Assembly: GCF_000381085.1 (NCBI RefSeq)
Contig: NZ_KB905902.1
Span: forward strand, 20,419-84,418
Source of the DNA: Thiomicrorhabdus arctica DSM 13458
GTDB taxonomy: Bacteria > Pseudomonadota > Gammaproteobacteria > Thiomicrospirales > Thiomicrospiraceae
Reading direction: 5' to 3'
DNA length: 64,000 nucleotides
A program made the position numbers and the translations under genes. This document shows, piece after piece, positions 5,365 through 50,008 of the stretch. The notes beneath the pieces are model-generated. The model saw only the letters and a list, made by a program, of their open reading frames with translations. It was not told the origin of the DNA and ran no database searches. Each line of letters starts with the position of its first letter. The first letter of the stretch is position 1.

Positions 5365-5465
5365 CTAAGTGTGAATGTGACTCACCCCCCGTAAAGGGAC
5401 ATGAATGTTAGAAGCAACCTTTTGAACCACCCACTTTCTCAACTTTTCTACCGCGATTCAAAAAT

Positions 5466-5479
5466 GACCAGGCCTGGTC
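5466..5479. repeat. Iterated palindrome GACCAGGCCTGGTC (intergenic)
   Basis: Perfect 14-bp palindrome with core CCAGGCCTGG, lying between the HD-GYP gene and selD. It is flanked by an A-run on the left and a T-run on the right, so it could also act as a transcription terminator here. Confidence 0.8.
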
Positions 5480-5652
5480 TCTTTTTAAAGCATGATGAAC
5501 ATCAAGCGATCTCTACTGATTCACCTCTTTAGGTCTCTTTACCATTCCCACCTTGGACTTATTTCGTTAAACTCTCTTTTATTGAGTCCATTTTAACGGT
5601 GGCTTCGATTACTTCTTCACGCCCCCTGACTGATTGCATAGGAACTCCATCA

Positions 5653-6729
5653 ATGCCCCTTACTGAAAAAACTTCAATTAATACTGTTTATAAACTGACA
5701 GAATACAGTCATGGTGCGGGATGCGGTTGTAAAATCTCTCCCAAGCTACTCGACAGTATTCTCAAGACTCAGTTAGAAATTGCTCCCCACCCGCAATTGT
5801 TAGTGGGTAATAGCACTAAAGATGATGCGGCCGCTTTTGATTTAGGCAATGGGTCCTCTATTTTGAGCACAACCGATTTTTTCATGCCGATAGTTGATGA
5901 CCCTTTTACCTTTGGCCAAATTGCAGCCACCAATGCCATCAGTGATATTTACGCAATGGGCGGTAAGCCATTAATGGCCATCGCTATCTTTGGTTGGCCC
6001 ATTGATATTCTGCCGGTAGAGGTCGGTCAGCAAGTCATTGAGGGTGGTCGGTCAGTATGTGAGGCGGCAGGCATTCCGCTAGCAGGCGGGCACTCTATTG
6101 ACGCCCCTGAACCGATTTTTGGCTTGGCCGTCACCGGCATCGTCGATAATGTTCATTTAAAACGCAATGCCTCTGCCGAAGCAGGCTGTGAACTGTTTTT
6201 AACCAAACCTGTGGGCATCGGTATTTTAACAACGGCACAAAAGCAGAAGAAGATACATCCAGACCATATGGCCATCGCGATTGAAGCCATGACGACCTTA
6301 AACCGTGCAGGGACAGATTTCGCTAAAATCGAGGGTGTTACCGCGCTAACCGATATTACTGGATTTGGCATACTAGGTCACCTAATCGAAATCTGCGAAG
6401 GCAGTGGTATCCACGCCCAAATCAATTTTGATGCGGTGCCGATTTTACCGCATGTATTAGAGTACTTAGCTTTGGGTTGTACTCCAGGAGGTACTGGCCG
6501 TAACTTTGAAAGCTACGGTCATAAAGTGAAAGGCCAAAATGGCGAACTCTCTGAAACCCAGAAGATGATTCTCTGTGACCCACAAACTTCAGGTGGCTTG
6601 CTGGCGGCTGTACGCCCTGATTCAGTCGCTGAGTTTAAGGCGGTCGCTGCACAACACGGTCTTACTTTAGAATCCATTGGCCATACGACAATCGCCAAGC
6701 CGACAAATACTTGCGTTGAGGTCATTTAA
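5653..6729 (+). CDS. selD: Selenide, water dikinase (selenophosphate synthetase)
   Basis: SelD makes selenophosphate from selenide and ATP, the selenium donor for selenoprotein and tRNA selenouridine synthesis. The N-terminus carries the active-site segment [10 protein letters not shown] with Cys24 at the Cys/Sec position and Lys27, so this is the cysteine form. DPQTSGGLL near the C-terminus and the ATP-binding AIRS-like fold are present. I chose the ATG at 5653 (358 residues) because AGGA lies 9-10 nt upstream and the protein then starts close to the family N-terminus. A GTG start at 5599 would add 18 unconserved residues. The stop overlaps the selU start (TAATG), so the two are translationally coupled. 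No selA or selB is visible, so the local use of selenium is tRNA modification. Confidence 0.93.
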
Positions 6730-7910
6730 TGTCCTCACCTAAAATGGCATCCACTAGCGTAATGACCCCTGATGACTTATCAAAGGACCTACCCGTTCAA
6801 TTAACGCAATATTCGGATGATCTACCGCAAATGGATGACTTTAAATCCATTATATTAAATAAAACACCGTTATTAGATGTCAGAGCGCCGCTTGAGTTTG
6901 ATCAGGGCGCATTCGAGACCGCTTTTAATATTCCGTTGATGAACGATCAGGAACGCCACAATATCGGTCTCTGTTATAAACAAAAGGGTCATGATGCCGC
7001 AGTTGAGTTGGGGCATATACTGGTGAATGAAAATGCCCGTGCACCTCGCATAAAAGCTTGGGCCGCTTTTATCGATAGTCATCCAGGTGCTTTACTCTAC
7101 TGCTTTAGAGGTGGACAACGCTCTAAAATTTCCCAACAGTGGTTGGCAGACAGTGGTTACCAGATCACCCGTTTAAAAGGCGGTTACAAAGCATTTAGAC
7201 GCTTTTTAATCGACTATCTCGACAAAATACCGCACCTATTCCTTGAAAAAAACATTCAACCGATTGTGCTCGCCGGACGCACAGGTGCAGGTAAAACCAT
7301 TGTACTGCAGCAACTCGATAACGCCATTGACCTAGAAGGCCTCGCAAACCACCGCGGTTCGGCTTTTGGGCGCCATGCAAGCCCACAACCGACACAAATC
7401 AACTTCGAAAATCAGCTTTCCATGGCATTAATGCGCTTTATTGAAACCCCTCATAGAAGCCTTATTGTTGAAGATGAAGGTCGAAATATTGGTTCAGTTT
7501 CTATGAATCTAGAGATCTTTACCGCTCTAAAGTCGGGGGCTAGAATCGTAGTCGAAACCCCACTTGCAGAACGCATTGAAATTACCCAACAAGAGTACGT
7601 TTTACAAGCCCAAGCCGAATATTCAAACCTAACGGAGTGGGTAGAGTTTATGCAGGGTGCCTTTGGGCGTATCCATAAACGTCTAGGCGGAGAAAGACAC
7701 CAACGTGTATTAAAAGCCTTTGAGGATGCCTTACAAAGGCAACAAGAAACAGGTATAACAGATGGCCATCGTGGCTGGATAGAAATTTTGTTAAGCGAAT
7801 ATTATGATCCAATGTATGACTATCAAATGACCAAAAATGATTACCCGATTATTTTTCAAGGCAGTATTGATGAGGTTGTTAGCTTCTTAAAAACCTATCA
7901 GCCACAATAG
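6729..7910 (+). CDS. selU: tRNA 2-selenouridine (geranyl-thiouridine) synthase
   Basis: SelU (YbbB, MnmH) converts 2-thiouridine at wobble position 34 of certain tRNAs to 2-selenouridine through a geranylated intermediate, using selenophosphate from SelD. The N-terminal rhodanese domain (about 35-160) holds the active cysteine in YCFRGGQRSK near residue 124. The C-terminal half has a P-loop, AGRTGAGKT, near residue 181. Length (393) is slightly longer than the E. coli protein because of an N-terminal extension of about 25 residues; a later start is possible but lacks a better ribosome site. The ATG overlaps the selD stop codon. Confidence 0.93.
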   Translation: MSSPKMASTSVMTPDDLSKDLPVQLTQYSDDLPQMDDFKSIILNKTPLLDVRAPLEFDQGAFETAFNIPLMNDQERHNIGLCYKQKGHDAAVELGHILVNENARAPRIKAWAAFIDSHPGALLYCFRGGQRSKISQQWLADSGYQITRLKGGYKAFRRFLIDYLDKIPHLFLEKNIQPIVLAGRTGAGKTIVLQQLDNAIDLEGLANHRGSAFGRHASPQPTQINFENQLSMALMRFIETPHRSLIVEDEGRNIGSVSMNLEIFTALKSGARIVVETPLAERIEITQQEYVLQAQAEYSNLTEWVEFMQGAFGRIHKRLGGERHQRVLKAFEDALQRQQETGITDGHRGWIEILLSEYYDPMYDYQMTKNDYPIIFQGSIDEVVSFLKTYQPQ

Positions 7911-37486: not shown

Positions 37487-39624
37487 TGATGCATGAGATT
37501 TTGCAATTCCAATTTTTACGTCCATGGTGGTTTTTAGGCTTATTACCGGTAATTTGGCTACTGTGGAACGTTTGGCAACTCAAACACCAAAAAGATGCTT
37601 GGTATCAGGTCATAGCTCCGCAATTTAGAAGCTTACTGCTAGGCGAGAATAAGCTCGGTGAAGTCTCTATTTTAAACAAATTGTCCATTTGGGTACTTGG
37701 TTTCATTTGGCTTATAGCGATTTTGGCGCTCTCTGGCCCTTCGCTTAAATCGGTGCAGATGCCGGCCGAAAAGAACCAACAAGGCACGGTTATTTTGCTC
37801 GACCTGTCACTCTCAATGTTAGCAGATGATCTGGCGCCGAACCGCTTGAGCCGGGTCAAATACAAAATTACGGATTTAGTGAAACAGCACCCAGAACTGT
37901 CAATTGGCCTAGTCGGATATGCAGGCAGTGCGCATAGCATCTCGCCTATTTCAGAAGATAATCAAACACTTTTAGGGCTATTGCCCGCTTTAAATCCTTT
38001 GATTATGCCAAGTTATGGTTCAAACCCATTATTAGGATTTGAGCAGGCCAAAAAATTGTTGGACGGTGCTTTTATTAATCACGGTCACATCATTTGGATG
38101 ACCGATGATTTGGAAGCAACACAACAACCGGCCATCAGGAAGTGGATTAAATCACATGACTACACTGTCAGTATTATGCCGGTCGGCACGGTTACGGGAG
38201 GTGTCGTACAGATTCCAAATTATGGTTTATTGAAAGATGAAAACGGAAAAATCGTTTTACCGCCGTTACCGATGGAACGCTTTGTTCAATTGAATGATTT
38301 AAGAGGGGTCAGCGTCACGCCCCTGCGTATTGGTGATAATTCTGTTGAGGCTTTACTGCCACCCATATCGGCTCGGCGAAGTCAGAAAGAGAGTGATGAA
38401 AACCCTGAACATAAAACCACCGACGGCACCATTGTGAATGCACTGGATGATGGGGCTTTGTTATTAATTCTTTTAGTGCCATTAGTTGCGTTGATTTATC
38501 GCCGTGGCTGGATTTTTAGTCTGTCATTTACGCTGATTCTACCGTTAGGATTGGCCGGATCACTCATGCCTACACCCAGTGTTGCAGGCAGTGAGTTGCC
38601 TAATTTTTCCTATGCCTTTAAATCACAAAATCAACAAGGCTACCAGGCCTGGTCAGATCAAAATTACAAGGCGGCCGAAGCTCTGTTTGAAGACAGTCAA
38701 TGGCGCGCCAGTGCTCTCTATCGTTTAGGAAAATATGCTGAAGCCGCCCCGCTATTTGCGAAAGACAAATCCGCCAATGGTGTTTACAATCAGGGGAATG
38801 CGTTCGCCAAATCTGGCCAGTTGAAACAAGCCAAACAAGCTTATGAAAAGGCTTTAAAAAAGCAGCCTAATTTTGCAGCTGCTCAGAAAAACTTAAAGTT
38901 AGTCAACCAACTATTGCAACAGCAGAAAGAAGAAAAGTCACAAAAAAAGCCACCAGAATCACACTCTAAAAAGAGTGACTCTAAGCAAGATGACTCCTCT
39001 TCTGAAGGCAAGAATAACAAAGATACCAAACCAGAAAATTCTGGTTCTGAAGAAAACTCTAATAAAAATGGCAGCCAAAACAGTGGTCAAGACGACTCCC
39101 CAGAGCACAGCAAGCAAGGTGGGGATGCCTCTAAAGGGTCTGACTCAGATTTATCGGACACCTCCGATATCGCAAAGTCTAAAAAAGCCAATGAAGCATT
39201 AAATCAACCTACACCAAAAAACCCGACGCCAGAAGATTCAAAAAAGGGAGAAAACCCTTCTCATCCGTTAGCTGATTCGACCGCTAAAGAGCCTAATGAC
39301 CCAGGCAAACCGAGTCGTGGAACCGCTGACTCGGCGAGTGACATTAAAAACGACAAGGCCTTACCAGGCCTGGCGGATTCCAAGCTTTCGGAACAGACAA
39401 TGAACGGGCGAGAACAAGGTGACGCCGCTCAAGCGACTCAAACTAAACGCCCGCCAACTGAAGAGCAACAAGCGACTCGTAATTGGTTAAAACAGATTCC
39501 TGACGAGCCGGGTGTCTTTTTAAAACGTAAATTCGAATACCAGTACCAACAACAATCGGCGCAGCCTACGGGTCAGACATCACCCGCTCACTCAACACCA
39601 AAATCGTCAAATAAGCAGTGGTAA
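37486..39624 (+). CDS. BatB/BatC fusion: VWA domain plus TPR and low-complexity tail
   Basis: This 712-residue protein joins two usual Bat components. The N-terminal half has membrane helices (about 13-30, 62-80), a VWA domain with MIDAS DLSLSMLADD near 105 and two helices near 325-365. The second half, after a signal-like junction, has TPR repeats (about 410-485, including YNQGNAFAKSGQLKQAKQAYEKAL). It ends with about 220 residues of Ser/Lys/Asp/Asn/Pro-rich disordered sequence. Fusion of batB with batC is common in Gammaproteobacteria. Two iterated palindromes fall within it. Confidence 0.87.
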   Translation: MMHEILQFQFLRPWWFLGLLPVIWLLWNVWQLKHQKDAWYQVIAPQFRSLLLGENKLGEVSILNKLSIWVLGFIWLIAILALSGPSLKSVQMPAEKNQQGTVILLDLSLSMLADDLAPNRLSRVKYKITDLVKQHPELSIGLVGYAGSAHSISPISEDNQTLLGLLPALNPLIMPSYGSNPLLGFEQAKKLLDGAFINHGHIIWMTDDLEATQQPAIRKWIKSHDYTVSIMPVGTVTGGVVQIPNYGLLKDENGKIVLPPLPMERFVQLNDLRGVSVTPLRIGDNSVEALLPPISARRSQKESDENPEHKTTDGTIVNALDDGALLLILLVPLVALIYRRGWIFSLSFTLILPLGLAGSLMPTPSVAGSELPNFSYAFKSQNQQGYQAWSDQNYKAAEALFEDSQWRASALYRLGKYAEAAPLFAKDKSANGVYNQGNAFAKSGQLKQAKQAYEKALKKQPNFAAAQKNLKLVNQLLQQQKEEKSQKKPPESHSKKSDSKQDDSSSEGKNNKDTKPENSGSEENSNKNGSQNSGQDDSPEHSKQGGDASKGSDSDLSDTSDIAKSKKANEALNQPTPKNPTPEDSKKGENPSHPLADSTAKEPNDPGKPSRGTADSASDIKNDKALPGLADSKLSEQTMNGREQGDAAQATQTKRPPTEEQQATRNWLKQIPDEPGVFLKRKFEYQYQQQSAQPTGQTSPAHSTPKSSNKQW
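38643..38652. repeat. Iterated palindrome CCAGGCCTGG in the batBC gene (copy 1)
   Basis: Exact core with outer A and T, read as Gln-Ala-Trp at the start of the TPR half. Confidence 0.8.
39364..39373. repeat. Iterated palindrome CCAGGCCTGG in the batBC gene (copy 2)
   Basis: Exact core read as CCA GGC CTG G (Pro-Gly-Leu) inside the otherwise Ser/Asp/Lys-rich tail, where there is little reason for protein-level conservation. Confidence 0.8.
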
Positions 39625-39629
39625 AGATA

Positions 39630-41351
39630 ATGCAAAAGAGACTCAAATCATTCCATAAAGGCCTTCTGTTCGCTTTTTTATTGGCAATACCGGTATTATC
39701 ATGGGCTCAGACCTTAACGGTGCAAACAGCTAGGCAAACGGTTGAATTAGGCGATGTGATTAGCTTAGTCATTCAAACCGACTTCCAAACAAGTGGGAAA
39801 CAGCTGGATTTGACCGTTTTGGAAGACCAATTTGACGTATTGGGAAAACAGCAAAGTAATAACCTTGAATTTATCAATGGTAACTTCAGCTCGCGTACTC
39901 GCTGGCAGATTCAGATGGTGGCAAAACACGTCGGTGAATTAGTCATTCCGCCGCTGCAAATTGAAGGCGCTAAAAGCCAGTCCTTAACCATTACGGTTGT
40001 ACCCGCAAAAAAAGCCAGTAAAGGTGACTTAGGTCCCTACTTTTTGGAATCCTCACTTAGCAAGCAAAATGTGATGGTTCAAGAAGAGGTCATATATACA
40101 CTGCGTCTATACTTCTTAGGCAGTGTTTCAGGTAATATCCGCCCTCCTCAATTTGGTCAAGCACTCTCTGAACCGCTCAAAGTACAATCCGTCTATGGTA
40201 AAGAACTCAATGGCAAAAACTATACGGTGTATGAATGGGTATACGCTTTATATCCGCAGAAAAGTGGCCAACTGGACATCCCTGGGGCGCAATTTTCGGG
40301 TCTCATTCAATATCAAGGCCGACAGAAAGGCGTCAGTGAAATCGCCGATACACAGACTTTGACGGTCTTGCCAGAAGTCGCTCAATTCAAAAGCCAGTCT
40401 AAAAACCCTTGGTTACCGGCTAGCGATTTACAATTGAAAGAGCAGTGGATCAGCTCTTTAGACAAAGTACGCGTCGGCGACAGTTTGACGCGAACCCTGA
40501 CCTTACAAGTGGTCGGCTTAAAGGCCAGTCAACTGCCTGTTCTGACCACAGAAAATGGTAAAGGGTATAAAATATACGCCGATCAACCCGTGACGAATCA
40601 AACCATTGTTAAATCGGGTCTACAAAGCCAAATTCAGGTTAAACAAGCCATTATTCCAACACAAGAAGGCCTACTCACACTGCCTGAACAAAGCATCACT
40701 TGGTGGAATACCACAACCCAAAAAATTGAGATGAGTTCAGTACCCGCCCGCAGTATAACCGTTCTGCCGGCTCTTGTTAGTCAAGGGCCTTTAAATAACA
40801 ATGGCCAAGTGTTGAATCCCGATGTTTTGAAAAACCAACATGCAAAAACCGCTTCAGCGAGTCAACAAATCAATGCCATGGTTTCACGTGAAACGACAAG
40901 CATCTGGCAAATCATCAGTTTACTGATGACTCTAGTTTGGGTAGCTACGTTGTTATTGTGGCGTAGAAAACATAAACAGATGCAGTCTAAAATCAGCGCC
41001 TTAACACCACAAGAATCAACCCCCGCCGACAGTCAGCAGGTCAGGTTAGCAACAGAGATGGGGTTATGCCAAACAGATGAGCAAGGCGGCCTTAAACTAA
41101 GTCCGCAACAGTTCTATAATAAATTGAGATTACAACTAGCTGATACTCACAATATTCATCATTTTGACGCACTTGAACACTCAGATCTACAAACCGAAAT
41201 TGCTCATTTGGAAGCTCATCTCTTTAACCAAGAACTTTTAAACCCAGACACGCTTTCAAATATCTGTCGGTTACTCAATAGCTGGTCAACAAAACCAGGT
41301 CAAGCTCAGTCCACCCCCGACAGTAAACTCAGTTCACTCTATGGTCGTTGA
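39630..41351 (+). CDS. batD: BatD (oxygen tolerance family) protein
   Basis: The protein (573 residues from ATG 39630; a GTG at 39618 would add four) has a signal peptide (about 1-27, ending SWA), long beta-rich periplasmic BatD domains (about 28-380) and one membrane helix near 435-455 (IWQIISLLMTLVWVATLLLW), then a cytoplasmic tail with helices. BatD is the periplasmic part of the Bat complex. It overlaps or abuts the batBC stop. A parS-like site lies within it just before the membrane helix. Confidence 0.87.
   Translation: MQKRLKSFHKGLLFAFLLAIPVLSWAQTLTVQTARQTVELGDVISLVIQTDFQTSGKQLDLTVLEDQFDVLGKQQSNNLEFINGNFSSRTRWQIQMVAKHVGELVIPPLQIEGAKSQSLTITVVPAKKASKGDLGPYFLESSLSKQNVMVQEEVIYTLRLYFLGSVSGNIRPPQFGQALSEPLKVQSVYGKELNGKNYTVYEWVYALYPQKSGQLDIPGAQFSGLIQYQGRQKGVSEIADTQTLTVLPEVAQFKSQSKNPWLPASDLQLKEQWISSLDKVRVGDSLTRTLTLQVVGLKASQLPVLTTENGKGYKIYADQPVTNQTIVKSGLQSQIQVKQAIIPTQEGLLTLPEQSITWWNTTTQKIEMSSVPARSITVLPALVSQGPLNNNGQVLNPDVLKNQHAKTASASQQINAMVSRETTSIWQIISLLMTLVWVATLLLWRRKHKQMQSKISALTPQESTPADSQQVRLATEMGLCQTDEQGGLKLSPQQFYNKLRLQLADTHNIHHFDALEHSDLQTEIAHLEAHLFNQELLNPDTLSNICRLLNSWSTKPGQAQSTPDSKLSSLYGR
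40880..40895. promoter_or_regulatory. parS-like ParB-binding site 3
   Basis: GGTTTCACGTGAAACG: the 14-bp palindromic core is exact and both outer bases differ from the consensus. It lies in batD and is read as Val-Ser-Arg-Glu-Thr, a different frame from the FHVK sites. Confidence 0.65.
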
Positions 41352-41826: not shown

Positions 41827-42282
41827 ATGCTTAAATCTTTAATGAAATCAATTGTAGTTTTAGCTGGCGTGGCGGCTGCCTTTTCAGTCATGGCCGAAGT
41901 GGCTAAACCTGAAGTTCCTGATACTTTTGCGGAGAGAAAATTCGTACTCCAGATTAGCGATCGTGACCCTTCCAAGCAAGTTTTGACACTCAATGTGGTC
42001 GGTAACCTTCTTACGTACTATCAAGGGGAGGAGGTTGATATTGAGGTTGTCGCCTTTGGCCCTGGAATTAATTTTCTAAAAGCAAGCAACAAGAATGCAG
42101 AGCGAGTGAAAATTTATATGGATGCTGGAGTTCGATTTAGTGCATGTGAAAAAACGTTAAATAGTTTGGCCGCAAAGCTTGGGGAAAAAATTGAACTTCA
42201 AGATGGGGTGACCGTGGTTCCTGCTGGTGCTCCGCGTATCTTTCAGTTACAAGATGCTGGATGGAAGCTTCTAAAGCCCTAA
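41827..42282 (+). CDS. Periplasmic DsrE-family protein (paralogue 1)
   Basis: This 151-residue protein has a signal peptide (about 1-23, ending VMA) and a DsrE/DsrF-fold domain with FVLQISDRDP, VDIEVVAFGPGINFL, the single conserved cysteine Cys107 in GVRFSACEKTL, and a C-terminal IFQLQDAGWKLLKP. It is a close relative of the proteins at 47662 and 48151. Cytoplasmic DsrE/TusD proteins carry persulfide on a comparable cysteine; the exported type (COG1416-like) has no proven reaction. AGAGAG precedes the ATG. It stands alone, followed by its own terminator and convergent with aas. Confidence 0.82.
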   Translation: MLKSLMKSIVVLAGVAAAFSVMAEVAKPEVPDTFAERKFVLQISDRDPSKQVLTLNVVGNLLTYYQGEEVDIEVVAFGPGINFLKASNKNAERVKIYMDAGVRFSACEKTLNSLAAKLGEKIELQDGVTVVPAGAPRIFQLQDAGWKLLKP

Positions 42283-42570: not shown

Positions 42571-44733
42571 TTAACTGGTAAAATGTCTTTCTGCAATATT
42601 TTGCACTTCAGGATAGTTTGTTTTCCCCGTGCCTAAGACGGGAATAGATTCGACCAAAATAACTGTTTTTGGAATCATTAGTTCAGTCACTTGGGTTGCT
42701 TTCGCGGCATCGAGTACCGTACTGCGGCTTAAGGTTGAGTCATTTGTCACTAAGACTAATTGCTCTCCCTTACGCTCGTCAGGTACAGCAACGACAACGT
42801 GATGGGCATCTGGACTCGCTTCATTGATATAGTTCTCAACGGCTGTCAATGAGACCATCTCGCCACCAATTTTAGCAAATCGTTTAGCGCGCCCTTTAAT
42901 CCAGACATAACCGTCCGTATCAACCTCAACGATATCACCCGTGTCATGCCAACCCTCTTTGGGTGGGAGTAGGACTCCTGGATTATCTGGCATGAGGTAA
43001 CCCAACATAATATTTGGACCCTTAACGAACAAACGGCCTCCTTCTTGAATGCCTGGCACACTTTCTAAACGATGCTCAACGCCTGCTACAAATTGACCCA
43101 CAGAACCATGTTTATAAGCGGTCGGAATATTGACGGCTAATACTGGTGTCGTTTCCGTGACCCCATAACCTTCGTAGATAGGCTGGTGAAATTTTTCAGC
43201 ATATACCTGACGCGTTTCAGGGCTTAATCTTTCCGCGCCTGCGATTAAAGCGGTGATGCTGTAAAAATCAAAAGGATCTGCTTTTCGTGCATAACCTCCA
43301 AAAAAGGTATCCGTACCAAAAATGAAACGGGCATTGGTTTGATAAACCATTTCAGGGACAACGGCATAATGTAAAGGCGAAGGGTACATAAACACCTTAG
43401 CCCCTTTAATAATCGGCCATAACATTCCGGCAGTAAGGCCGAAACAATGGAAAGTCGGTAAGGCACTTAAAATTTGCTGGCCAGGTAATAAGGTCAACAT
43501 GGAATGAATTTGTTCAATATTACTTACTAAATTTTGATGAGAAAGCACCACCCCTTTTGGCACGCCTTCTGATCCAGAAGTAAACAAAACCACCGCCTCA
43601 TCTAACGGATCTTTATGATGACCAAGCAGTGATTTAGGGGAAGTCATTAACCCCATTAACTTATCCAATCTACCGATATGTGCACGAATATCTTCTAAAT
43701 AGATAAATTGAATTTCTGAAGAAAGTTCATCGACGAGTGGTTGCAATGCAAATGCGTCGACAAATTTTTGCGAGGTAATAATGCTCTTTAACTCCGCTGT
43801 TTGACAGGCGGAACGAATGGCGGAAACCCCTGATGTAAAGTTAATCATAGCCGGTACATGGCCGTAAGCAAGTAGTGCAAAAAAAGTAGCTGGCATACCA
43901 GAGACATTAGGTAACATCAAACCGATACGTGTTTCATCGCTCAACACTTTGTGTAACTGTTTACCTAATATAATGGATGCTAAGGTCAGTTTTTTAAGGT
44001 TTAAAGATTGTTTATTAATGTCTTCAACACAATTTTCCTTCTGATTGTAAGTCGACTTTGCCTGCAACAAAGCTGTAAATACCGTTTGTGTTTTGACAGA
44101 ACCGTAATAACCTCCATCGCGTAAGAGTCGGAAAACTTGCTGGTTTAAGAACTGGTGTTTTGCATGCCCTTTAAGAACTTCAGCTGGTTTTATTTTCTGT
44201 GCGGGTTGTAGGTTGATGGTAATTTTAGGAAACCAAAACTGCTTCATAAATGCGAATTTAGTGCCGTCAAGATAAGAGAACTTACTATAAACCGCGCCAC
44301 CAATATGAACCGCCAATACCGCAGCATCGCTTTTTTGAGCAACCATTGCGGTTCCTTGATACACCTTCATCAGGCTGCCGGTTGTGGTAATACGACCCTC
44401 AGGGAAGATCATGCACTGTTTGCCTTTTTTGAGCTCTTCAATCATATGTTTGGCAGCATAAGGATTGTGTAAATCCACCGTAAAGAAGCAACACATACTT
44501 AAGATAAATCGCTCATGCCATTTTTCAGTATGTGCAGTATCCACCATAAACGTGGTTTCACCAGGAATAAAAAGATCCAGTAAAGGTCCGTCTAAAGTCG
44601 ACACATGGTTAGAAATAATCAGCAATGGTTGTTCAGTTTGATCCACGGCATGAAAGTGTTCTAGTCCATTGACTTCGACACGATAAAATAGCTTGAATAA
44701 GCCCTTAGCAACTAACTTAAATAACCACTTCAT
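42571..44733 (-). CDS. aas: Bifunctional acyltransferase / acyl-ACP (acyl-CoA) synthetase, Aas type
   Basis: The 720-residue protein joins a PlsC-type acyltransferase (NHVSTLDGP near 42-50, FPEGRITTTG near 112) to an AMP-forming acyl-activating enzyme (TSGSEGVPKGVVLSHQN near 390, YEGYGVTETTPV near 525, WHDTGD near 605). In E. coli Aas re-acylates lyso-phosphatidylethanolamine imported by LplT, repairing membrane phospholipids. The lplT-like gene is 49 nt upstream on the same strand, confirming the pairing. Confidence 0.92.
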   Translation of the reverse strand: MKWLFKLVAKGLFKLFYRVEVNGLEHFHAVDQTEQPLLIISNHVSTLDGPLLDLFIPGETTFMVDTAHTEKWHERFILSMCCFFTVDLHNPYAAKHMIEELKKGKQCMIFPEGRITTTGSLMKVYQGTAMVAQKSDAAVLAVHIGGAVYSKFSYLDGTKFAFMKQFWFPKITINLQPAQKIKPAEVLKGHAKHQFLNQQVFRLLRDGGYYGSVKTQTVFTALLQAKSTYNQKENCVEDINKQSLNLKKLTLASIILGKQLHKVLSDETRIGLMLPNVSGMPATFFALLAYGHVPAMINFTSGVSAIRSACQTAELKSIITSQKFVDAFALQPLVDELSSEIQFIYLEDIRAHIGRLDKLMGLMTSPKSLLGHHKDPLDEAVVLFTSGSEGVPKGVVLSHQNLVSNIEQIHSMLTLLPGQQILSALPTFHCFGLTAGMLWPIIKGAKVFMYPSPLHYAVVPEMVYQTNARFIFGTDTFFGGYARKADPFDFYSITALIAGAERLSPETRQVYAEKFHQPIYEGYGVTETTPVLAVNIPTAYKHGSVGQFVAGVEHRLESVPGIQEGGRLFVKGPNIMLGYLMPDNPGVLLPPKEGWHDTGDIVEVDTDGYVWIKGRAKRFAKIGGEMVSLTAVENYINEASPDAHHVVVAVPDERKGEQLVLVTNDSTLSRSTVLDAAKATQVTELMIPKTVILVESIPVLGTGKTNYPEVQNIAERHFTS

Positions 44734-44782: not shown

Positions 44783-46105
44783 TTAAACGATTTTGAGTCT
44801 GTTTTGCCGAACTTGTATCCACCATGCAATGCTTAAATTTAATACGGCTAAACATAATAAGATATTCAATAAACTGAGCGATAATGCGAAACCAATCATC
44901 ACTAAAACGGCAGACATCACCATCAAAAATGCATTGAGTATATTATTAACCGCGACCATTCTAGCACGGACGTTTACTGGGGTTTGCGTTTGTAATAGTG
45001 TGTAAAGGGGCACGATATAAGCCCCTCCCAACAATGCAATCAATAACAATAAAATAAATAGAGTGTTGAGCGGCCAAGTCGTTATAAATTCATTAAAACT
45101 GATTCGACCAGCTGATTGACTCTGCAGGAATAGAAATTGTGTGCTCTGCTCAATCACTCCAAGCATCGCGAACAACAATATTGAGATCAAACCAAGCATT
45201 AAGCCATGCCATTTGAAATTCAAGTGATTTTTAAAAGAGTGACTCGCGAAAACAGACCCCAATGCGATACCAACTGAAAAGACTGATAAGAATGCCGTTG
45301 CTACGCCTTCATTTGCCCACAACACATACTTTGTAAGTATGGGAATCTGACTGAGCATGACCGCCCCTAAAAACCAAAACCAAGAGATGGCCAACACCGA
45401 AAAAAATGAGGTGTGATATCCCTTACAAAGTTTAATCAGTTGCCAACTACTTTTGAGTAGATTGCCTTCAATCAATAACTCTTTATTTTGTACTGTCGAA
45501 GGTTTTAGCCATAAACTCACAGCGTATCCACTTAATGCAACGCCAATAATGGCCATTGACATCACTTCAATTCCATTTGGCATCAATACACCAATCCCGC
45601 CTAATATTGTCCCGAATAAAATGGCAATGAATGTTGATCCACTGAACAATGCATTACCTTGCATTAAACTTTTATCCATTAATATTTCAGGCAGTACGGA
45701 ATATTTAATGGGGCCAAAAAAGGCCGATTGTGTGCCCATTAAAAAGAGCGTCACAAACAATAATTCGAGCTGCAGGGTTAACAAAGCGAAGGCGCCAAAC
45801 AGCATAATAAACACTTCCGCTAATTTTATTTTTTGGATTAGAAATGACTTAGGATAATGATCAGCAAGTTGACCTGCAAGACCAGAAAAAAGGAAAAATG
45901 GTAGGATAAATAGGCCTGCGGCTAGGGTAATTAATAAACCAGTCTCGCCGTTGGATTGACTCAATCTAAAAGTGATTAGCATCACCAAGGAGTTTTTAAA
46001 CAAGTTATCGTTGAATGCCCCTAAAAACTGAACCCAAAAAAGTGTAAAAAAGGGTCTTTTACACAGTGGGGATTTCGAATATAAGTACTTTGAAATAAAA
46101 TTCAT
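44783..46105 (-). CDS. lplT: LplT-like lysophospholipid transporter (MFS)
   Basis: A major-facilitator protein with about 12 helices; FFTLFWVQFLGAFNDNLFKN near the start is the family signature. It should flip lysophospholipids to the cytoplasmic face for Aas. I chose the ATG at 46105 (440 residues), just before the conserved region. An ATG at 46174 would add 23 residues and overlap the anti-sigma gene. The gap of 40 nt to the anti-sigma factor gene suggests that sigma factor, anti-sigma factor, lplT and aas form one transcript. Symbol by similarity and context. Confidence 0.85.
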   Translation of the reverse strand: MNFISKYLYSKSPLCKRPFFTLFWVQFLGAFNDNLFKNSLVMLITFRLSQSNGETGLLITLAAGLFILPFFLFSGLAGQLADHYPKSFLIQKIKLAEVFIMLFGAFALLTLQLELLFVTLFLMGTQSAFFGPIKYSVLPEILMDKSLMQGNALFSGSTFIAILFGTILGGIGVLMPNGIEVMSMAIIGVALSGYAVSLWLKPSTVQNKELLIEGNLLKSSWQLIKLCKGYHTSFFSVLAISWFWFLGAVMLSQIPILTKYVLWANEGVATAFLSVFSVGIALGSVFASHSFKNHLNFKWHGLMLGLISILLFAMLGVIEQSTQFLFLQSQSAGRISFNEFITTWPLNTLFILLLLIALLGGAYIVPLYTLLQTQTPVNVRARMVAVNNILNAFLMVMSAVLVMIGFALSLSLLNILLCLAVLNLSIAWWIQVRQNRLKIV

Positions 46106-46145
46106 AGGCAAGACATAATAAAAATATAACACTCTAGAAGATATT

Positions 46146-46835
46146 TTATATTTTAATGTATTTCCACCCTTCACTCAATCGTTCAACCACTTGATCAAGA
46201 GCGGGCTTATCATGCTTTACTTGTGGCAATAATTGCAATCTTGCATCCTTCTCCATTGCCCTTTGTAAGGCTCTTTTACAAGCATATAAGGTTAAATTAT
46301 CAAAGCGGTTTAATAGACCTTCCAGCTGCGCTCTATTAGAGTTATTAACATCAAACAACCCCACTCCTTCATAGTTGGTAATAAAATCTACTTTGATACC
46401 CGGTCCACCATTCACTAATAATTTCTCAGTTTGATCTAAAGCAGCAGCTAATTTTTTAGGGTCGGCAGAATCTAAGTGAATGAGATATTTTTGTTCCGCC
46501 ATTTGATGCTGGTCTGCGGCTGACAAGAAAGCCTGATTAAAAGGCATATTGACAGATAAGTATCCTATTAAAACCCCAATAAAAAGTGCGGCAACCGCAG
46601 CTTTAGGTAGCTGCCAACCCGCCTTTTCTCTATCAACCACAGGTTGATAGGATGGGATATTCACCAGTTGATAAGAATCTTTTATCTGTCTTTTTAATGC
46701 ACTGAATTGAATAATTTCGTTACGAAGACTCTCATCTGTCTCCATAAGCTGTTCAATTTCCTTATTTTCTGGAGGTGCTAATTCCCCATCGATATAAGCA
46801 TGAATTTGATATTTTTCAATGGCAGCACTCATCAA
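46146..46835 (-). CDS. Transmembrane anti-sigma factor with a DsrE-like periplasmic domain
   Basis: The 229-residue protein has a cytoplasmic N-terminus (IHAYIDGELAPPENKEIE at 11-28, anti-sigma-like but without the HxxxCxxC zinc site), one membrane helix (about 78-98) and a predicted periplasmic domain (about 115-229). That domain follows the DsrE-family proteins next door block by block: KYLIHLDSADPKK, VDFITNYEGVGLF, NLTLYACKRAL with Cys186, and a final LSEGWKYIKI. The matching blocks in the 47662 product are VVLQLSDYNPAK, VDMEIVTFGPGVRLL, VRFSVCGNTL and LQRAGWQVLKP. The homology is my reading by eye. The ATG overlaps the sigma factor stop (ATGA). Sensing through the DsrE fold is inference. 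Confidence 0.8.
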   Translation of the reverse strand: MMSAAIEKYQIHAYIDGELAPPENKEIEQLMETDESLRNEIIQFSALKRQIKDSYQLVNIPSYQPVVDREKAGWQLPKAAVAALFIGVLIGYLSVNMPFNQAFLSAADQHQMAEQKYLIHLDSADPKKLAAALDQTEKLLVNGGPGIKVDFITNYEGVGLFDVNNSNRAQLEGLLNRFDNLTLYACKRALQRAMEKDARLQLLPQVKHDKPALDQVVERLSEGWKYIKI

Positions 46836-47407
46836 CGTCCCCTCAATGGAACGACTTTTCTTTGTCCAGAATGGGATTTTTCTAATAAAAACCGGAGTTT
46901 TTCTCTTCCTCTTGAAATTCGGCTCATCACCGTACCAATAGGGGTTGAGGTGATTTCAGAAATTTCTTGGTAGGAAAAGCCTTGAATGTCTGACAGGGAA
47001 ATGGCTTGACGGTGCTCAAAAGACAGTTTGCCCATTGCAAGATGCAAAGCATCTTGGGTTTGTTTTTCTATTAATTTACTTTCATTGCACGCTTCTGCTA
47101 AACAGTAATCGACTTCAGTTTCATCTGCCCATTCCCAGCGACGATTATATCTTAAATTATCAATAAATTTATTATGCATAATCTTGCTTAACCAAGCACC
47201 AAACTGGTCGAAATTATCTAAGTCACCTTGTTTCTCAAGGGCCTTTAACATGGTTTCTTGCACTAAATCTTGTGCCAGGCAGGCTTGATGAGTCCACGCA
47301 TAGGCAAGACGATAGAGCCGATCATACTGGGCTTCAAGAGCCTGGTTAAATCGTTCTTTTTGTTGCACTGAACATAAAAAAGTAACAATCTTTTTTGTTA
47401 ATTTCAT
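46832..47407 (-). CDS. ECF-family RNA polymerase sigma factor
   Basis: The 191-residue protein has sigma-2 (RLYRLAYAWTHQACLAQDLVQETMLKAL, about 31-58) and sigma-4 regions (LSDIQGFSYQEISEITSTPIGTVMSRISRGREKLR, about 138-172) separated by a short linker, the ECF layout. It is translationally coupled to its anti-sigma factor. It is divergent from the dsrE-dsrE-porin genes, whose common promoter lies in the 254 bp between, so these are likely targets together with its own operon. Confidence 0.92.
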   Translation of the reverse strand: MKLTKKIVTFLCSVQQKERFNQALEAQYDRLYRLAYAWTHQACLAQDLVQETMLKALEKQGDLDNFDQFGAWLSKIMHNKFIDNLRYNRRWEWADETEVDYCLAEACNESKLIEKQTQDALHLAMGKLSFEHRQAISLSDIQGFSYQEISEITSTPIGTVMSRISRGREKLRFLLEKSHSGQRKVVPLRGR

Positions 47408-47604
47408 TGTTAATCACTTTCTGAATAATTTGGTGTGTAAAGCAAGCTTATTTTGCTTAATTGAGATCGTAAATTACGCTAACAATAGAATAAAAGCAAT
47501 CATATTACCGTTTAATTAAATAAACAAAACTAGTACAGGTATAGAAAAGTTTGGTTCAAAATAATGGAATAAAACACCGCCCACAAGCGTTTAATAGAAG
47601 ACAC

Positions 47605-47630
47605 ATCTCGATTTACAATTTCCACGAGAT
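47605..47630. promoter_or_regulatory. Inverted repeat ATCTCG-N14-CGAGAT upstream of the dsrE-dsrE-porin genes
   Basis: Six-base arms separated by 14 bases, about 32 bp before the ATG at 47662. It could be an operator or a leader-RNA hairpin. Only the symmetry supports it. Confidence 0.35.
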
Positions 47631-47661
47631 ATACACTAAAAACCAAAGAGGAAGATATTAC

Positions 47662-48120
47662 ATGTTTAAAAAAACAGCTCTCAAACTAATGTGGTTATTT
47701 GCAGGTATCACCATTTCAATGTCTGCTTTTTCAGCCGCGAACGATTCACCCCTTCCAGAGACTTTTGCTGACAATAAGGTTGTCTTGCAATTGAGCGATT
47801 ACAATCCTGCTAAACAGCAACTCGTTTTAAATGTTGCTGGGAATCTACTTAAGTACTTTGGTGGTAAAGAAGTCGATATGGAGATCGTTACGTTTGGTCC
47901 GGGTGTACGCTTACTTATGGAAGGCAACCCTCATGCACAACGTATTCAAACACTTATGGACGCAGGTGTTCGTTTCTCTGTTTGTGGTAACACTTTAACC
48001 AATATGACAAAGAAACTGGGTTATAGACCAATTGTAAGAGGTGGTGTTATGGAAGTTAAAGCCGGTGCGGGTCGTATCTTGCAGTTACAAAGAGCAGGTT
48101 GGCAGGTTCTTAAACCTTAA
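47662..48120 (+). CDS. Periplasmic DsrE-family protein (paralogue 2)
   Basis: From ATG 47662 (AGAGGAAG upstream) the product is 152 residues with a signal peptide (about 1-26). The frame is open from 47551, but that extension precedes the signal peptide and is not plausible. The domain shows VVLQLSDYNPAK, VDMEIVTFGPGVRLL, conserved Cys108 in GVRFSVCGNTL and LQLQRAGWQVLKP, closest to the 41827 product. First gene of a three-gene unit with a second dsrE-like gene (30 nt) and a porin gene, divergent from the sigma factor. A sulfur-carrier or sulfur-binding role is inferred only from the family. Confidence 0.85.
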   Translation: MFKKTALKLMWLFAGITISMSAFSAANDSPLPETFADNKVVLQLSDYNPAKQQLVLNVAGNLLKYFGGKEVDMEIVTFGPGVRLLMEGNPHAQRIQTLMDAGVRFSVCGNTLTNMTKKLGYRPIVRGGVMEVKAGAGRILQLQRAGWQVLKP

Positions 48121-48150
48121 AAAACGGTCAATGACAAAAGGAAATCACAC

Positions 48151-48639
48151 ATGAAAATAGTTCAAAAAATATTCAAATTGTTCCTAATGGTACTGGTAAC
48201 GAGTTTATCGTTCTCAGCAATGGCTGCCAGCGATCGTTATGGTAAACAAAAAGTGGTTTATCACGTGAATTACGACAATGCCAAAAAACAGTCTGGTACT
48301 TTAAGAAATATTCAAAACCACATCAATGCAGTGGGTGCTGAGAATCTGGATGTCAGAGTCGTAATGCATGGAAATGGTTTATCTTTAATCCTAAAACCTG
48401 AGGCATTAAAAGACGTACCTAAATTCAAGTCGGCTAATGCCACACATGTAATGACACAAAAAATAGATAAGTTGAAGCTGCAAGGTGTCAGTTTTAATGT
48501 CTGCGCAAATACCCTTAAGGGTAGAAAAGTCGATGTTGAAAAACACCTATATGATGCTTCTCAGTCGGACATTGTGCCAAGTGGTGTTGCAGAACTCGCA
48601 TACTTACAAGATCAAGGCTTCAGATACCTTCGCCCTTAA
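48151..48639 (+). CDS. Periplasmic DsrE-family protein (paralogue 3)
   Basis: The 162-residue protein has a signal peptide (about 1-26, ending AMA) and a more diverged DsrE-fold domain: KVVYHVNYDNAKK, LDVRVVMHGNGLSLI, Cys118 in GVSFNVCANTL and YLQDQGFRYLRP. The pattern VxFxxCxNTL is shared with its neighbour, and the VVMHGNG segment is common in COG1416-type proteins. It sits 30 nt behind paralogue 2 and 58 nt before the porin gene, so the two may form a heteromer as DsrE and DsrF do in the cytoplasm. Confidence 0.85.
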   Translation: MKIVQKIFKLFLMVLVTSLSFSAMAASDRYGKQKVVYHVNYDNAKKQSGTLRNIQNHINAVGAENLDVRVVMHGNGLSLILKPEALKDVPKFKSANATHVMTQKIDKLKLQGVSFNVCANTLKGRKVDVEKHLYDASQSDIVPSGVAELAYLQDQGFRYLRP

Positions 48640-48697
48640 ATGTCGAAGATTTCTACAGAAATATAAATCTATAAAATAAAGAATAACGAGGATACAC

Positions 48698-50008
48698 ATG
48701 CTAAACAAAAAATATGCATTCAAAAAAACCGCAATCTTATTGGCTCTAACAGGCGCATTTGCTTCACAAGGCGCACAAGCAAGTAACTGGTTAATGCTGC
48801 AAGGTACAGAAGCTGACCACCAGGCACCACGTGCTAAGGTTTGGGGTTTTGTGCAAGGTGAATATCAATCCACAGATAACACAAAACTAAAAGCCGGCCC
48901 TGGGAAAGGACAAGAAGCTGCATTTAACCAAATTGCACCTCAATTATCATCATCTCAAAGTTTTAATATCCGTCGTGCCCGTATTGGTGTTCGTGGGGCG
49001 AACTTCCCACTGGATCCTAAAACGAATTACTTTATGTTAGCTGAGTTTGGTAATAATGGTATCACTACAGGTGGTAAGGGTTCACAAGGACAGTTAACCG
49101 ATGCCAGTGTTACGTTTAACCATATTCCTGGAGCACGTGTCCGTGCCGGTCTATTTAAAACACCGGGTTCAGAGGAGTCCTTTCAGGGAATTGCAACCTT
49201 CAACTACATTAACTTCACCAGTGCGACAGACCGTTTATTAATTGAGCGTACTTTTGATAACTCAACTGGCGACACATCACGTAATGGTCCGGTAGGCGCT
49301 GTCAGAGATACAGGTATTCAGGTCTTTGATGCATTCCGTAGAGGTGATTGGGAACACTCTTATGCAGTCATGATAGGTAATGGTGGGGGCTTGGCGACTA
49401 CCAATAAAGATAACGATCTAGATACCTATGTTTATCTTTCAACTGAAAAAGTATTTGGGGAATCAAAAGGTCCTAGAAGAAAAGGCCTGAAATTCTTCGC
49501 ATGGCAACAAGATGGTAAAAGAACCATTGACGGTACCTCTGGTCACAACCGTACTCGTAGTGGTTTAGGGACAACCTTTTTCAATGGTAAATACCGTTTG
49601 GCTGCTGAATATATTCAAGCCGATGGTATGATTTACGGCGGAACAACAGGTGCGCGTACCCCTGCAAATGGTGGTACATTCGTCGTCCAAAAAGACCAGA
49701 AAGCCGATGGTTATTATGTTGATTTTGGTTACCGTGCTCTGCCTAACCTAGAGTTAAATGCTCGTTATGATGTACTTAATAGCGGCACAGCAACAGACGC
49801 TCAATCAGGCACAGGTAATGATAAAGAACGCCTGTTTACAACCACAACATTGGGTGCTCAGTACTTCTTTAACAAGAAGACATCTGTTCGTTTGAACTAT
49901 GAAATTCGTTCAATCGAGGCACCTAATGCACCTGCAGCAGCTGGCGTACATAAAATTCTAGATGGAGTAGATAATCGCTTAGCCGCTGGATTCACGATGG
50001 TTTTCTAA
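48698..50008 (+). CDS. OprO/OprP-type outer membrane porin
   Basis: The 436-residue protein has a signal peptide (about 1-28, ending AQA) and a porin barrel rich in alternating strands, ending in a terminal aromatic residue (AAGFTMVF). Segments SFNIRRARIGVRG (near 85), GARVRAGLFKTPGSEE (near 147) and YVDFGYRALPNLELNARYD fit the phosphate/pyrophosphate-selective porin family. The real solute is not determined; polyphosphate, sulfate, thiosulfate or others are possible. Its place behind two periplasmic DsrE-like genes makes it part of the ECF-linked unit. GAGGA precedes the ATG. Confidence 0.85.
   Translation: MLNKKYAFKKTAILLALTGAFASQGAQASNWLMLQGTEADHQAPRAKVWGFVQGEYQSTDNTKLKAGPGKGQEAAFNQIAPQLSSSQSFNIRRARIGVRGANFPLDPKTNYFMLAEFGNNGITTGGKGSQGQLTDASVTFNHIPGARVRAGLFKTPGSEESFQGIATFNYINFTSATDRLLIERTFDNSTGDTSRNGPVGAVRDTGIQVFDAFRRGDWEHSYAVMIGNGGGLATTNKDNDLDTYVYLSTEKVFGESKGPRRKGLKFFAWQQDGKRTIDGTSGHNRTRSGLGTTFFNGKYRLAAEYIQADGMIYGGTTGARTPANGGTFVVQKDQKADGYYVDFGYRALPNLELNARYDVLNSGTATDAQSGTGNDKERLFTTTTLGAQYFFNKKTSVRLNYEIRSIEAPNAPAAAGVHKILDGVDNRLAAGFTMVF

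Follow-up and report, generated by a model that had tools for sequence, protein, structure and literature searches.

An extracytoplasmic function sigma factor and a predicted DsrE-domain anti-sigma factor appear to control one adjacent DsrE-porin operon in many sulfur-oxidizing bacteria

Results

A sigma/anti-sigma gene pair lies beside a divergent DsrE-porin run

We analyzed a 64,000-nucleotide stretch of the genome of Thiomicrorhabdus arctica DSM 13458 (contig NZ_KB905902.1, positions 20,419 to 84,418; "the window") that encodes an extracytoplasmic function (ECF) sigma factor and a membrane anti-sigma factor. A sequence-only reading had proposed that a periplasmic sulfur or thiol signal releases this sigma factor, which would then raise the levels of two exported DsrE-family proteins, a porin, and a phospholipid repair pair, LplT-Aas. 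The window DNA, its open reading frames (ORFs), and a Pfam scan place all of the genes named in that reading where it put them (Table 1). The sigma, anti-sigma, lplT, and aas genes run head to tail on the same minus strand, and the genes for DsrE1, DsrE2, and an OprO/OprP-type porin are divergent from the sigma gene; export of DsrE1 and DsrE2 was called by eye from their hydrophobic, signal-peptide-like N termini. The core of the locus is an ECF sigma factor and a predicted DsrE-domain anti-sigma factor, beside a divergent, operon-like DsrE-porin run with a putative GGAATAA-N14/15-CGT promoter element. The earlier interpretation as a whole was partly supported.

The sigma factor has regions 2 and 4 and gave no match to region 3 at an E value of 0.1, as in ECF sigma factors. 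The reported 4-bp overlap between the sigma and anti-sigma genes holds with a TTG start only; from the ATG at 46832, the two genes share a single base. The longest ORF for DsrE1 begins with TTG at 47551, and the ATG at 47662, preceded by GAGGAAG, is the likelier start. DsrE1 matches MTH1491 (Protein Data Bank [PDB] entry 1l1s) with a phmmer E value of 8e-8. The genome (2.55 Mb, six contigs) contains six DsrE matches in all. SoxB is present and a profile search of the genome gave no DsrA match, so the organism fits a Sox-type sulfur oxidizer.

Table 1. Positions of the core genes, predicted promoter elements, and neighboring genes in the window (PWM, position weight matrix score).
Feature	Position	Strand	Basis
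ECF sigma factor, regions 2 and 4	46832..47407	-	Pfam Sigma70_r2 5.3e-13 and Sigma70_r4_2 2.5e-14, both above cutoff
Membrane anti-sigma factor	46146..46835	-	AlphaFold model, DsrE-fold match, weak zf-HC2
Codon of the single periplasmic Cys of the anti-sigma factor, residue 185 counted from ATG	46278..46280	-	Invariant in 61/61 relatives
DsrE-family protein 1 (DsrE1), exported-looking, one Cys (residue 108)	47662..48120	+	Pfam DsrE 21.2 bits, cutoff 22.7
DsrE-family protein 2 (DsrE2), exported-looking, one Cys (residue 118)	48151..48639	+	Pfam DsrE 41.9 bits, above cutoff
OprO/OprP-like outer-membrane porin	48698..50008	+	Porin_O_P 32.8 bits, cutoff 20.9
Putative promoter element GGAATAA-N15-CGTTTA before DsrE1	47566..47593	+	PWM 26.3, best in window; 68 bases before DsrE1 start
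Tandem near-match AGAATAA-N15-CGTTTA, one mismatch	47487..47514	+	PWM 21.2, second best in window
LplT-like MFS transporter, neighbor, noncore	44783..46174	-	Gene scan and neighborhood counts
Aas-like acyltransferase/acyl-acyl carrier protein synthetase, neighbor, noncore	42571..44733	-	Gene scan and neighborhood counts
Third DsrE paralogue, outside the system	41827..42282	+	Pfam DsrE 28.4 bits; no promoter element

The periplasmic part of the anti-sigma factor is predicted to be a DsrE domain with one invariant cysteine

An AlphaFold model of the anti-sigma factor (mean predicted local distance difference test [pLDDT] score, 87.9) has a helical N terminus, a helix at residues 77 to 95, a weakly predicted linker, and a compact C-terminal domain. 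This corresponds to a cytoplasmic helical domain, one transmembrane helix (residues 77 to 95 of the model), and a periplasmic domain with the DsrE fold (residues 113 to 228). The C-terminal domain superposes on ST0148 (2pd2; Z score, 17.3) and MTH1491 (1l1s; Z score, 17.1), and also on E. coli YchN (Z score, 14.5) and chain A of DsrEFH (Z score, 12.7). A profile built from 61 anti-sigma relatives matches MTH1491 over its C-terminal part with an E value of 3.4e-21. The Pfam DsrE model gave no match to the anti-sigma factor of the window and matches 9 of the 61 relatives at an E value of 0.01. Cys185 is invariant in all 61 relatives, and 60 of them have no other periplasmic cysteine. It aligns with a cysteine of both MTH1491 and ST0148 and with the cysteines of the three DsrE proteins encoded in the window. 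The model, the profile match, and the invariant cysteine place the earlier assignment of a DsrE-domain anti-sigma factor on firmer ground, and we conclude that the periplasmic part is, as modeled, a DsrE domain with a single invariant cysteine. In a tree of 114 rows, built from few columns and with an unsettled bootstrap, the DsrE domains of the anti-sigma factors group together (support, 100/99), apart from the exported DsrE proteins.

The cytoplasmic part matches zf-HC2 in 25 and RseA_N in 2 of the 61 relatives (Pfam; E value of 0.01), and its matches to MucA and RseA structures are weak (6in7, E value of 0.28; 8z6g, E value of 0.53). Zinc-binding anti-sigma factors carry the hallmark HxxxCxxC, a motif found in none of the 61 relatives. 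Stop codons interrupt the anti-sigma frame in the closest relative (L047), which may reflect either true gene loss or faulty assembly.

The sigma/anti-sigma pair and the DsrE-porin run co-occur across many families

We compared neighborhoods in three sets of loci. In the family of the window, 38 of 62 genomes have an anti-sigma match, and the 38 regions gave 38 anti-sigma rows (one interrupted gene was counted twice, and one region gave no row). A sigma gene is adjacent in 36 of these rows, a divergent DsrE gene is present in 30, a porin gene in 29, and both DsrE and porin genes in 27; in 4 rows, the DsrE gene instead lies downstream on the strand of the anti-sigma gene. At the class level, 40 chosen regions gave 41 rows (one region gave none and two gave two), with sigma in 38, divergent DsrE in 21, porin in 20, both in 19, and DsrE on the same strand in 6. 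The sigma gene thus adjoins the anti-sigma gene in 74 of the 79 rows of the two sets. The third set consists of the best 80 of 279 named loci from a DsrE1 alignment search, nearly all of them in metagenome assemblies; 77 were left after removal of three without a usable anchor. A porin gene directly follows DsrE1 in all 67 loci with at least 1,500 bases downstream. Among the 67 loci with at least 1,700 bases upstream, 57 include sigma and anti-sigma genes; these are directly divergent in 41, and another reading frame or gene lies in between in 16. The whole core is present in Thiohalobacter thiocyanaticus Hrh1 (L236) and in assemblies titled Thiolapillus brandeum (L189), Sedimenticola (L172), and Thiogranum (L227). 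We conclude that, as the sequence-only reading had supposed, the co-occurrence of a DsrE-domain anti-sigma factor, an exported-looking DsrE protein, and a porin is kept across many families.

In six loci, DsrE2 and DsrE1 are preceded by a gene whose TlpA-like product has an export-like N terminus and contains CPPC (identity from a Pfam scan of two of the six, L176 and L183). Two loci, L101 and L117, have two back-to-back sigma/anti-sigma pairs, one followed by DsrE2 and the other divergent from DsrE1 and the porin gene; this arrangement suggests two subtypes. We also considered the divergent genes of class-level loci without DsrE as members of the system. The ten proteins scanned (GlnE twice, MetW, adenylate kinase, an alpha/beta hydrolase, a TPR protein, a nucleotidase-like protein, DUF3859, and two without a match) look like unrelated neighbors, and we rejected them. 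At L114 (positions 5286 to 7460), a 5′-nucleotidase/metallophosphoesterase-like gene takes the place of DsrE and porin beside a sigma/anti-sigma pair, with elements on both sides; having an element, it is possibly an exception among these neighbors.

A conserved two-part element precedes the divergent genes

The gaps between the sigma and DsrE genes contain a two-part element, GGAATAA followed after 14 to 15 bases by CGT(T/C)T. In the window, a near-copy lies 79 bases upstream of the main element. Among 48 gaps that are 100 bases or longer, 47 have GGAATA ahead of the divergent gene, compared with a mean of 4.0 in dinucleotide shuffles, and 25 have it together with CGTNT, compared with 0.06. 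Facing the sigma gene in the same gaps, GGAATA occurs in 16 and the two-part element in 9. In 57 DsrE1-anchored gaps, GGAATA is found toward the divergent gene in 44 and toward the sigma gene in 40 (4.5 in shuffles); with CGTCT, it is found in 15 and 16, respectively (0 in shuffles). These counts are not independent: the gaps are related to one another, and the sets have members in common (judged by length, at least 8 contigs, L163 and L094 being one example, are the same). By eye, the second box often has one and the same variant in both promoters of a locus, a pattern that would follow from their being read by a single sigma factor. A motif shared by the regions upstream of 47407 and 47662 had been anticipated; such sharing is seen in many other loci, whereas in the window the element precedes 47662 and not 47407.

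Position and conservation suggest that this sigma factor reads the element. Of 10 DsrE1 loci without a local sigma gene, 7 (L173, L196, L202, L205, L209, L210, and L211) keep GGAATA before DsrE1, and a CGTCT or CATCT box accompanies it in 5 of the 7; a sigma factor encoded elsewhere in the genome may serve these loci in trans.

The exact pattern occurs once in the genome of the window, in this gap. Allowing up to one mismatch, there are 10 sites, compared with 5 for a reversed control; 2 lie in this gap and 8 within ORFs (defined mechanically, over 120 amino acids). A wider regulon in this genome was rejected on the position of these 8 sites. Across the genus, 22 of 32 genomes contain exact sites, 29 in total by hand count. 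Of these, 16 are at the locus and one is at a contig edge; the remaining 12 are fewer than the 23 of the reversed control (also by hand count). Since the non-ORF copies in its own genome lie in this gap only, the sigma factor seems to be dedicated to the DsrE-porin operon there. The third DsrE gene was rejected as a regulon member: a PWM scan of its locus (L005) found no promoter element.

Among the own-genus gaps of loci L037 to L054, outside the window, 13 of 16 have TTCGATA (often TTTTTTCGATA[CG]TAAT) near the sigma start, and the GGAATAA element toward the sigma gene is missing from them. TTCGATA may be a binding site for a regulator or the promoter of the sigma gene itself.

The anti-sigma gene is associated with sulfur oxidation genes

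In a sample of 369 genomes from the class, the anti-sigma profile matches 124 at some level and 67 strongly (E value of 1e-20 or better; two of the strong matches cover only part of the profile). Of these 67, 65 have soxB, compared with 87 of the 302 others (Fisher P = 4e-27); SoxB was called at an E value of 1e-50, and 148 of the 152 genomes so called are also above the family cutoff. The corresponding numbers for DsrA are 53 of 67 and 64 of 302. When one genome was drawn from each of 157 families, SoxB was present in 30 of 31 genomes with the anti-sigma gene and 37 of 126 without it (P = 1.5e-12). Many SoxB carriers lack the anti-sigma gene, which is therefore accessory.

These data bear on an alternative in which the anti-sigma factor is a general sensor of periplasmic thiol or metalloid stress. 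Its cysteine would report oxidants, disulfide stress, or thiol poisons, and the DsrE and TlpA-like proteins would repair or buffer thiols. A sensor with one cysteine and the TlpA-like CPPC protein of six loci are consistent with such a role, as are reports that arsenite raises or lowers the expression of DsrE/F-like genes in two Thioalkalivibrio strains and lowers that of a porin in one of them, although these may be other genes and another porin (PMC6620896). However, soxB or dsrA is present in all 67 genomes with a strong anti-sigma match and in 98 of the 302 others, and so tight an association with sulfur oxidation is unexpected for a general stress system. We consider this alternative quite unlikely.

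The anti-sigma gene occurs in more than 30 families of the class (31 of the 157 in the one-per-family draw, plus the family of the window). A draw of 398 genomes from the phylum gave 18 matches at an E value of 1e-20. Three are in the class of the window and are full length; the 15 in other classes lack the N-terminal part, so that this draw, which leaves room for rare cases, contains no full-length anti-sigma factor outside the class. In the 15 non-class genomes (G434, G453, G576, and 12 others; loci L246 to L248), the encoded proteins are close DsrE relatives that lack an anti-sigma part. Some of these matches begin at profile positions 56 to 75, before the transmembrane region ends, and membrane-anchored DsrE proteins may exist outside the class.

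The porin resembles OprO and OprP

The porin model (pLDDT, 80; first 34 residues poorly predicted) is closest to OprO (Z score, 27.0; 312 residues; root mean square deviation, 3.1) and OprP (Z score, 26.9), with the next porin at 24.3. It shares this fold and a Pfam family (PF07396) with OprO and OprP and differs in that its family profile matched no PDB sequence at an E value of 0.001. Arginines kept in at least 20 of 22 porin members stand in i, i+2 pairs (93/95, 147/149, and 285/287), which recall the arginine ladder named in the title of the OprP entry. Because the net charge of the members is not consistently positive, anion selectivity of the porin is a guess. A porin of Endoriftia, EGV52132.1, is reported to be the most abundant symbiont protein (PMC7787665) and may or may not correspond to this one. 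That OprO and OprP are the closest solved structures would suit a module for phosphate or polyphosphate acquisition, but the tight link to soxB and DsrE argues against it, and we consider such a function very unlikely.

Neighboring genes

The sequence-only reading had included phospholipid repair by LplT-Aas, and in a wider version of the proposal membrane repair is an output of the switch. In the window, lplT and aas do lie head to tail with the sigma/anti-sigma pair. The listed GTG start of lplT overlaps the anti-sigma gene, and an ATG at 46105 gives a protein of 440 amino acids and a gap of 40 bp. Beyond the window, the lplT gene follows the anti-sigma gene in 12 of the 38 same-family rows, all within the genus of the window. 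In contrast, it is adjacent in none of the 41 class-level rows, and neither lplT nor aas was seen in the flanking DNA (7 kb at most and often shorter) of any of the 80 DsrE1-anchored loci. A PWM scan of the window locus found no promoter element before lplT, and none faces the sigma gene in the window's gap. LplT-Aas was rejected as a part of the system on its genus-only adjacency and missing promoter element; by these comparisons, the two genes are genus-level neighbors and not an output of the switch, and control of membrane repair by this sigma factor is hardly credible. The third DsrE gene, which falls a short way beyond the range given in the sequence-only reading, stands alone between aas and an ORF of 577 amino acids (39618 to 41351).

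Discussion

We propose that the locus encodes a dedicated transmembrane switch of sulfur-oxidizing Gammaproteobacteria: a sulfur reaction at the sensor cysteine would release the sigma factor, which in turn would raise the levels of periplasmic DsrE carriers and the porin; we assign this reading a probability of about 0.6. Without a signal, the anti-sigma factor would hold the sigma factor. A periplasmic sulfur species, derived from thiosulfate or polysulfide or handed over as sulfur from the exported DsrE proteins, would react with Cys185, and the anti-sigma factor would be changed or cut, freeing the sigma factor. In the genome of the window, the freed sigma factor would transcribe essentially this operon alone, and the cell would gain periplasmic DsrE carriers as well as additional outer-membrane pores through which sulfur oxyanions or polysulfide might pass. 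Several features point to sulfur or thiol chemistry at Cys185: the sensor has the DsrE fold and a single conserved cysteine, the DsrE products also carry cysteines, six loci add a TlpA-like gene, and there is an association with sulfur oxidizers. Cysteines of DsrE3A from Metallosphaera are reported to take up thiosulfate from tetrathionate, so that, by that account, such chemistry is documented on the DsrE fold (PMC4175335).

Several observations weigh against this reading. Known anti-sigma domains match the cytoplasmic part weakly. Of the 62 same-family genomes, 24 have no anti-sigma match, and the anti-sigma factor is therefore dispensable. Neither a DsrE nor a porin gene is a neighbor in 13 of the 41 class-level rows (one of them at a contig end), and 10 of 67 DsrE1-porin loci have no sigma gene in the retrieved stretch, 3 of these being without the promoter element. 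The window's gap lacks a sigma-ward element, both hits there pointing to DsrE1, so autoregulation is not general. Finally, the soxB association may partly reflect shared ancestry among species related above the family level, and it counts the anti-sigma gene and not the whole system.

The exported DsrE proteins may have a more direct part in signaling. They might pass sulfane sulfur or thiosulfonate to the anti-sigma cysteine, in a covalent relay that reads periplasmic sulfur flux; we regard this as doubtful, if a live possibility. A different explanation is homeostatic titration, in which exported DsrE proteins bind the DsrE domain of the anti-sigma factor and their sulfur-loaded or free state, rather than a small molecule, decides the release of the sigma factor. 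The system would then sense the loading of its carriers and not sulfur from outside. Sensor and product have a common fold and an aligned cysteine and are encoded together in most loci, and by PDB titles the solved relatives of the DsrE fold include the multisubunit DsrEFH and TusBCD. Yet the exported and anti-sigma domains fall in separate tree groups, and the 13 class-level rows just mentioned would have no DsrE or porin product beside the sensor. We judge titration unlikely.

RseA and MucA consist of a cytoplasmic helical domain, one transmembrane helix, and a periplasmic part. The anti-sigma factor described here has the same layout but matches this type weakly in sequence and has a DsrE sensor domain in place of theirs. 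MTH1491 and ST0148, the closest solved relatives of the sensor domain, have the aligned cysteine but are stand-alone proteins whose entry titles give the function as unknown. The DsrEFH and TusBCD sulfurtransferases are heterohexamers of three kinds of subunit that act in the cytoplasm. The fold and the aligned cysteine are common to the DsrE/TusD/YchN superfamily, including DsrEFH and DsrE3A (PMC4175335), whereas here the DsrE proteins are apparently exported, with a transmembrane helix joining one copy to an anti-sigma domain. That report sorts the superfamily into groups DsrE to DsrE5, and the portion of it available to us names no exported or anti-sigma member.

ECF systems that respond to sulfite or tetrathionate are known in Alphaproteobacteria: they include RpoE1 and RpoE4 of Sinorhizobium meliloti (ECF26) and the sulfite- and tetrathionate-responsive ECF sigma factors of Starkeya novella, and the signals are sulfite or, for the RpoE1-like factors, taurine or tetrathionate (PMC3511301, PMC6527743). 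Like the present system, these systems are sigma/anti-sigma pairs; theirs respond to sulfur species beside the gene for a sulfite-oxidizing enzyme. They differ in that this enzyme is their output, and the portions of these two reports available to us mention no DsrE sensor domain. None of the eight proteins scanned between 41827 and 50008 is a sulfite-oxidizing enzyme. We found no description of a DsrE-type anti-sigma factor in the literature searched, which did not cover the 2021 ECF reclassification, a possible place for one to be listed. We conclude that this kind of sigma/anti-sigma switch is known and that the sensor domain and the set of targets appear to be new.

To our knowledge, little is established about how sulfur oxidizers detect reduced sulfur in the periplasm and how they adjust import through the outer membrane. 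The proposed switch would be self-contained and widespread, with a nearly single target, and for it both a candidate sensor residue and a promoter element can be named. In many sulfur-oxidizing bacteria, it appears to control a single neighboring operon. The locus further hints at a function for exported DsrE proteins; we found none for them in the literature searched. If the relay is true, this would be transmembrane signaling in which the receptor is a paralogue of the system's own cargo carrier, and sulfur flux would be read across the membrane and answered with more carriers and more outer-membrane pores.

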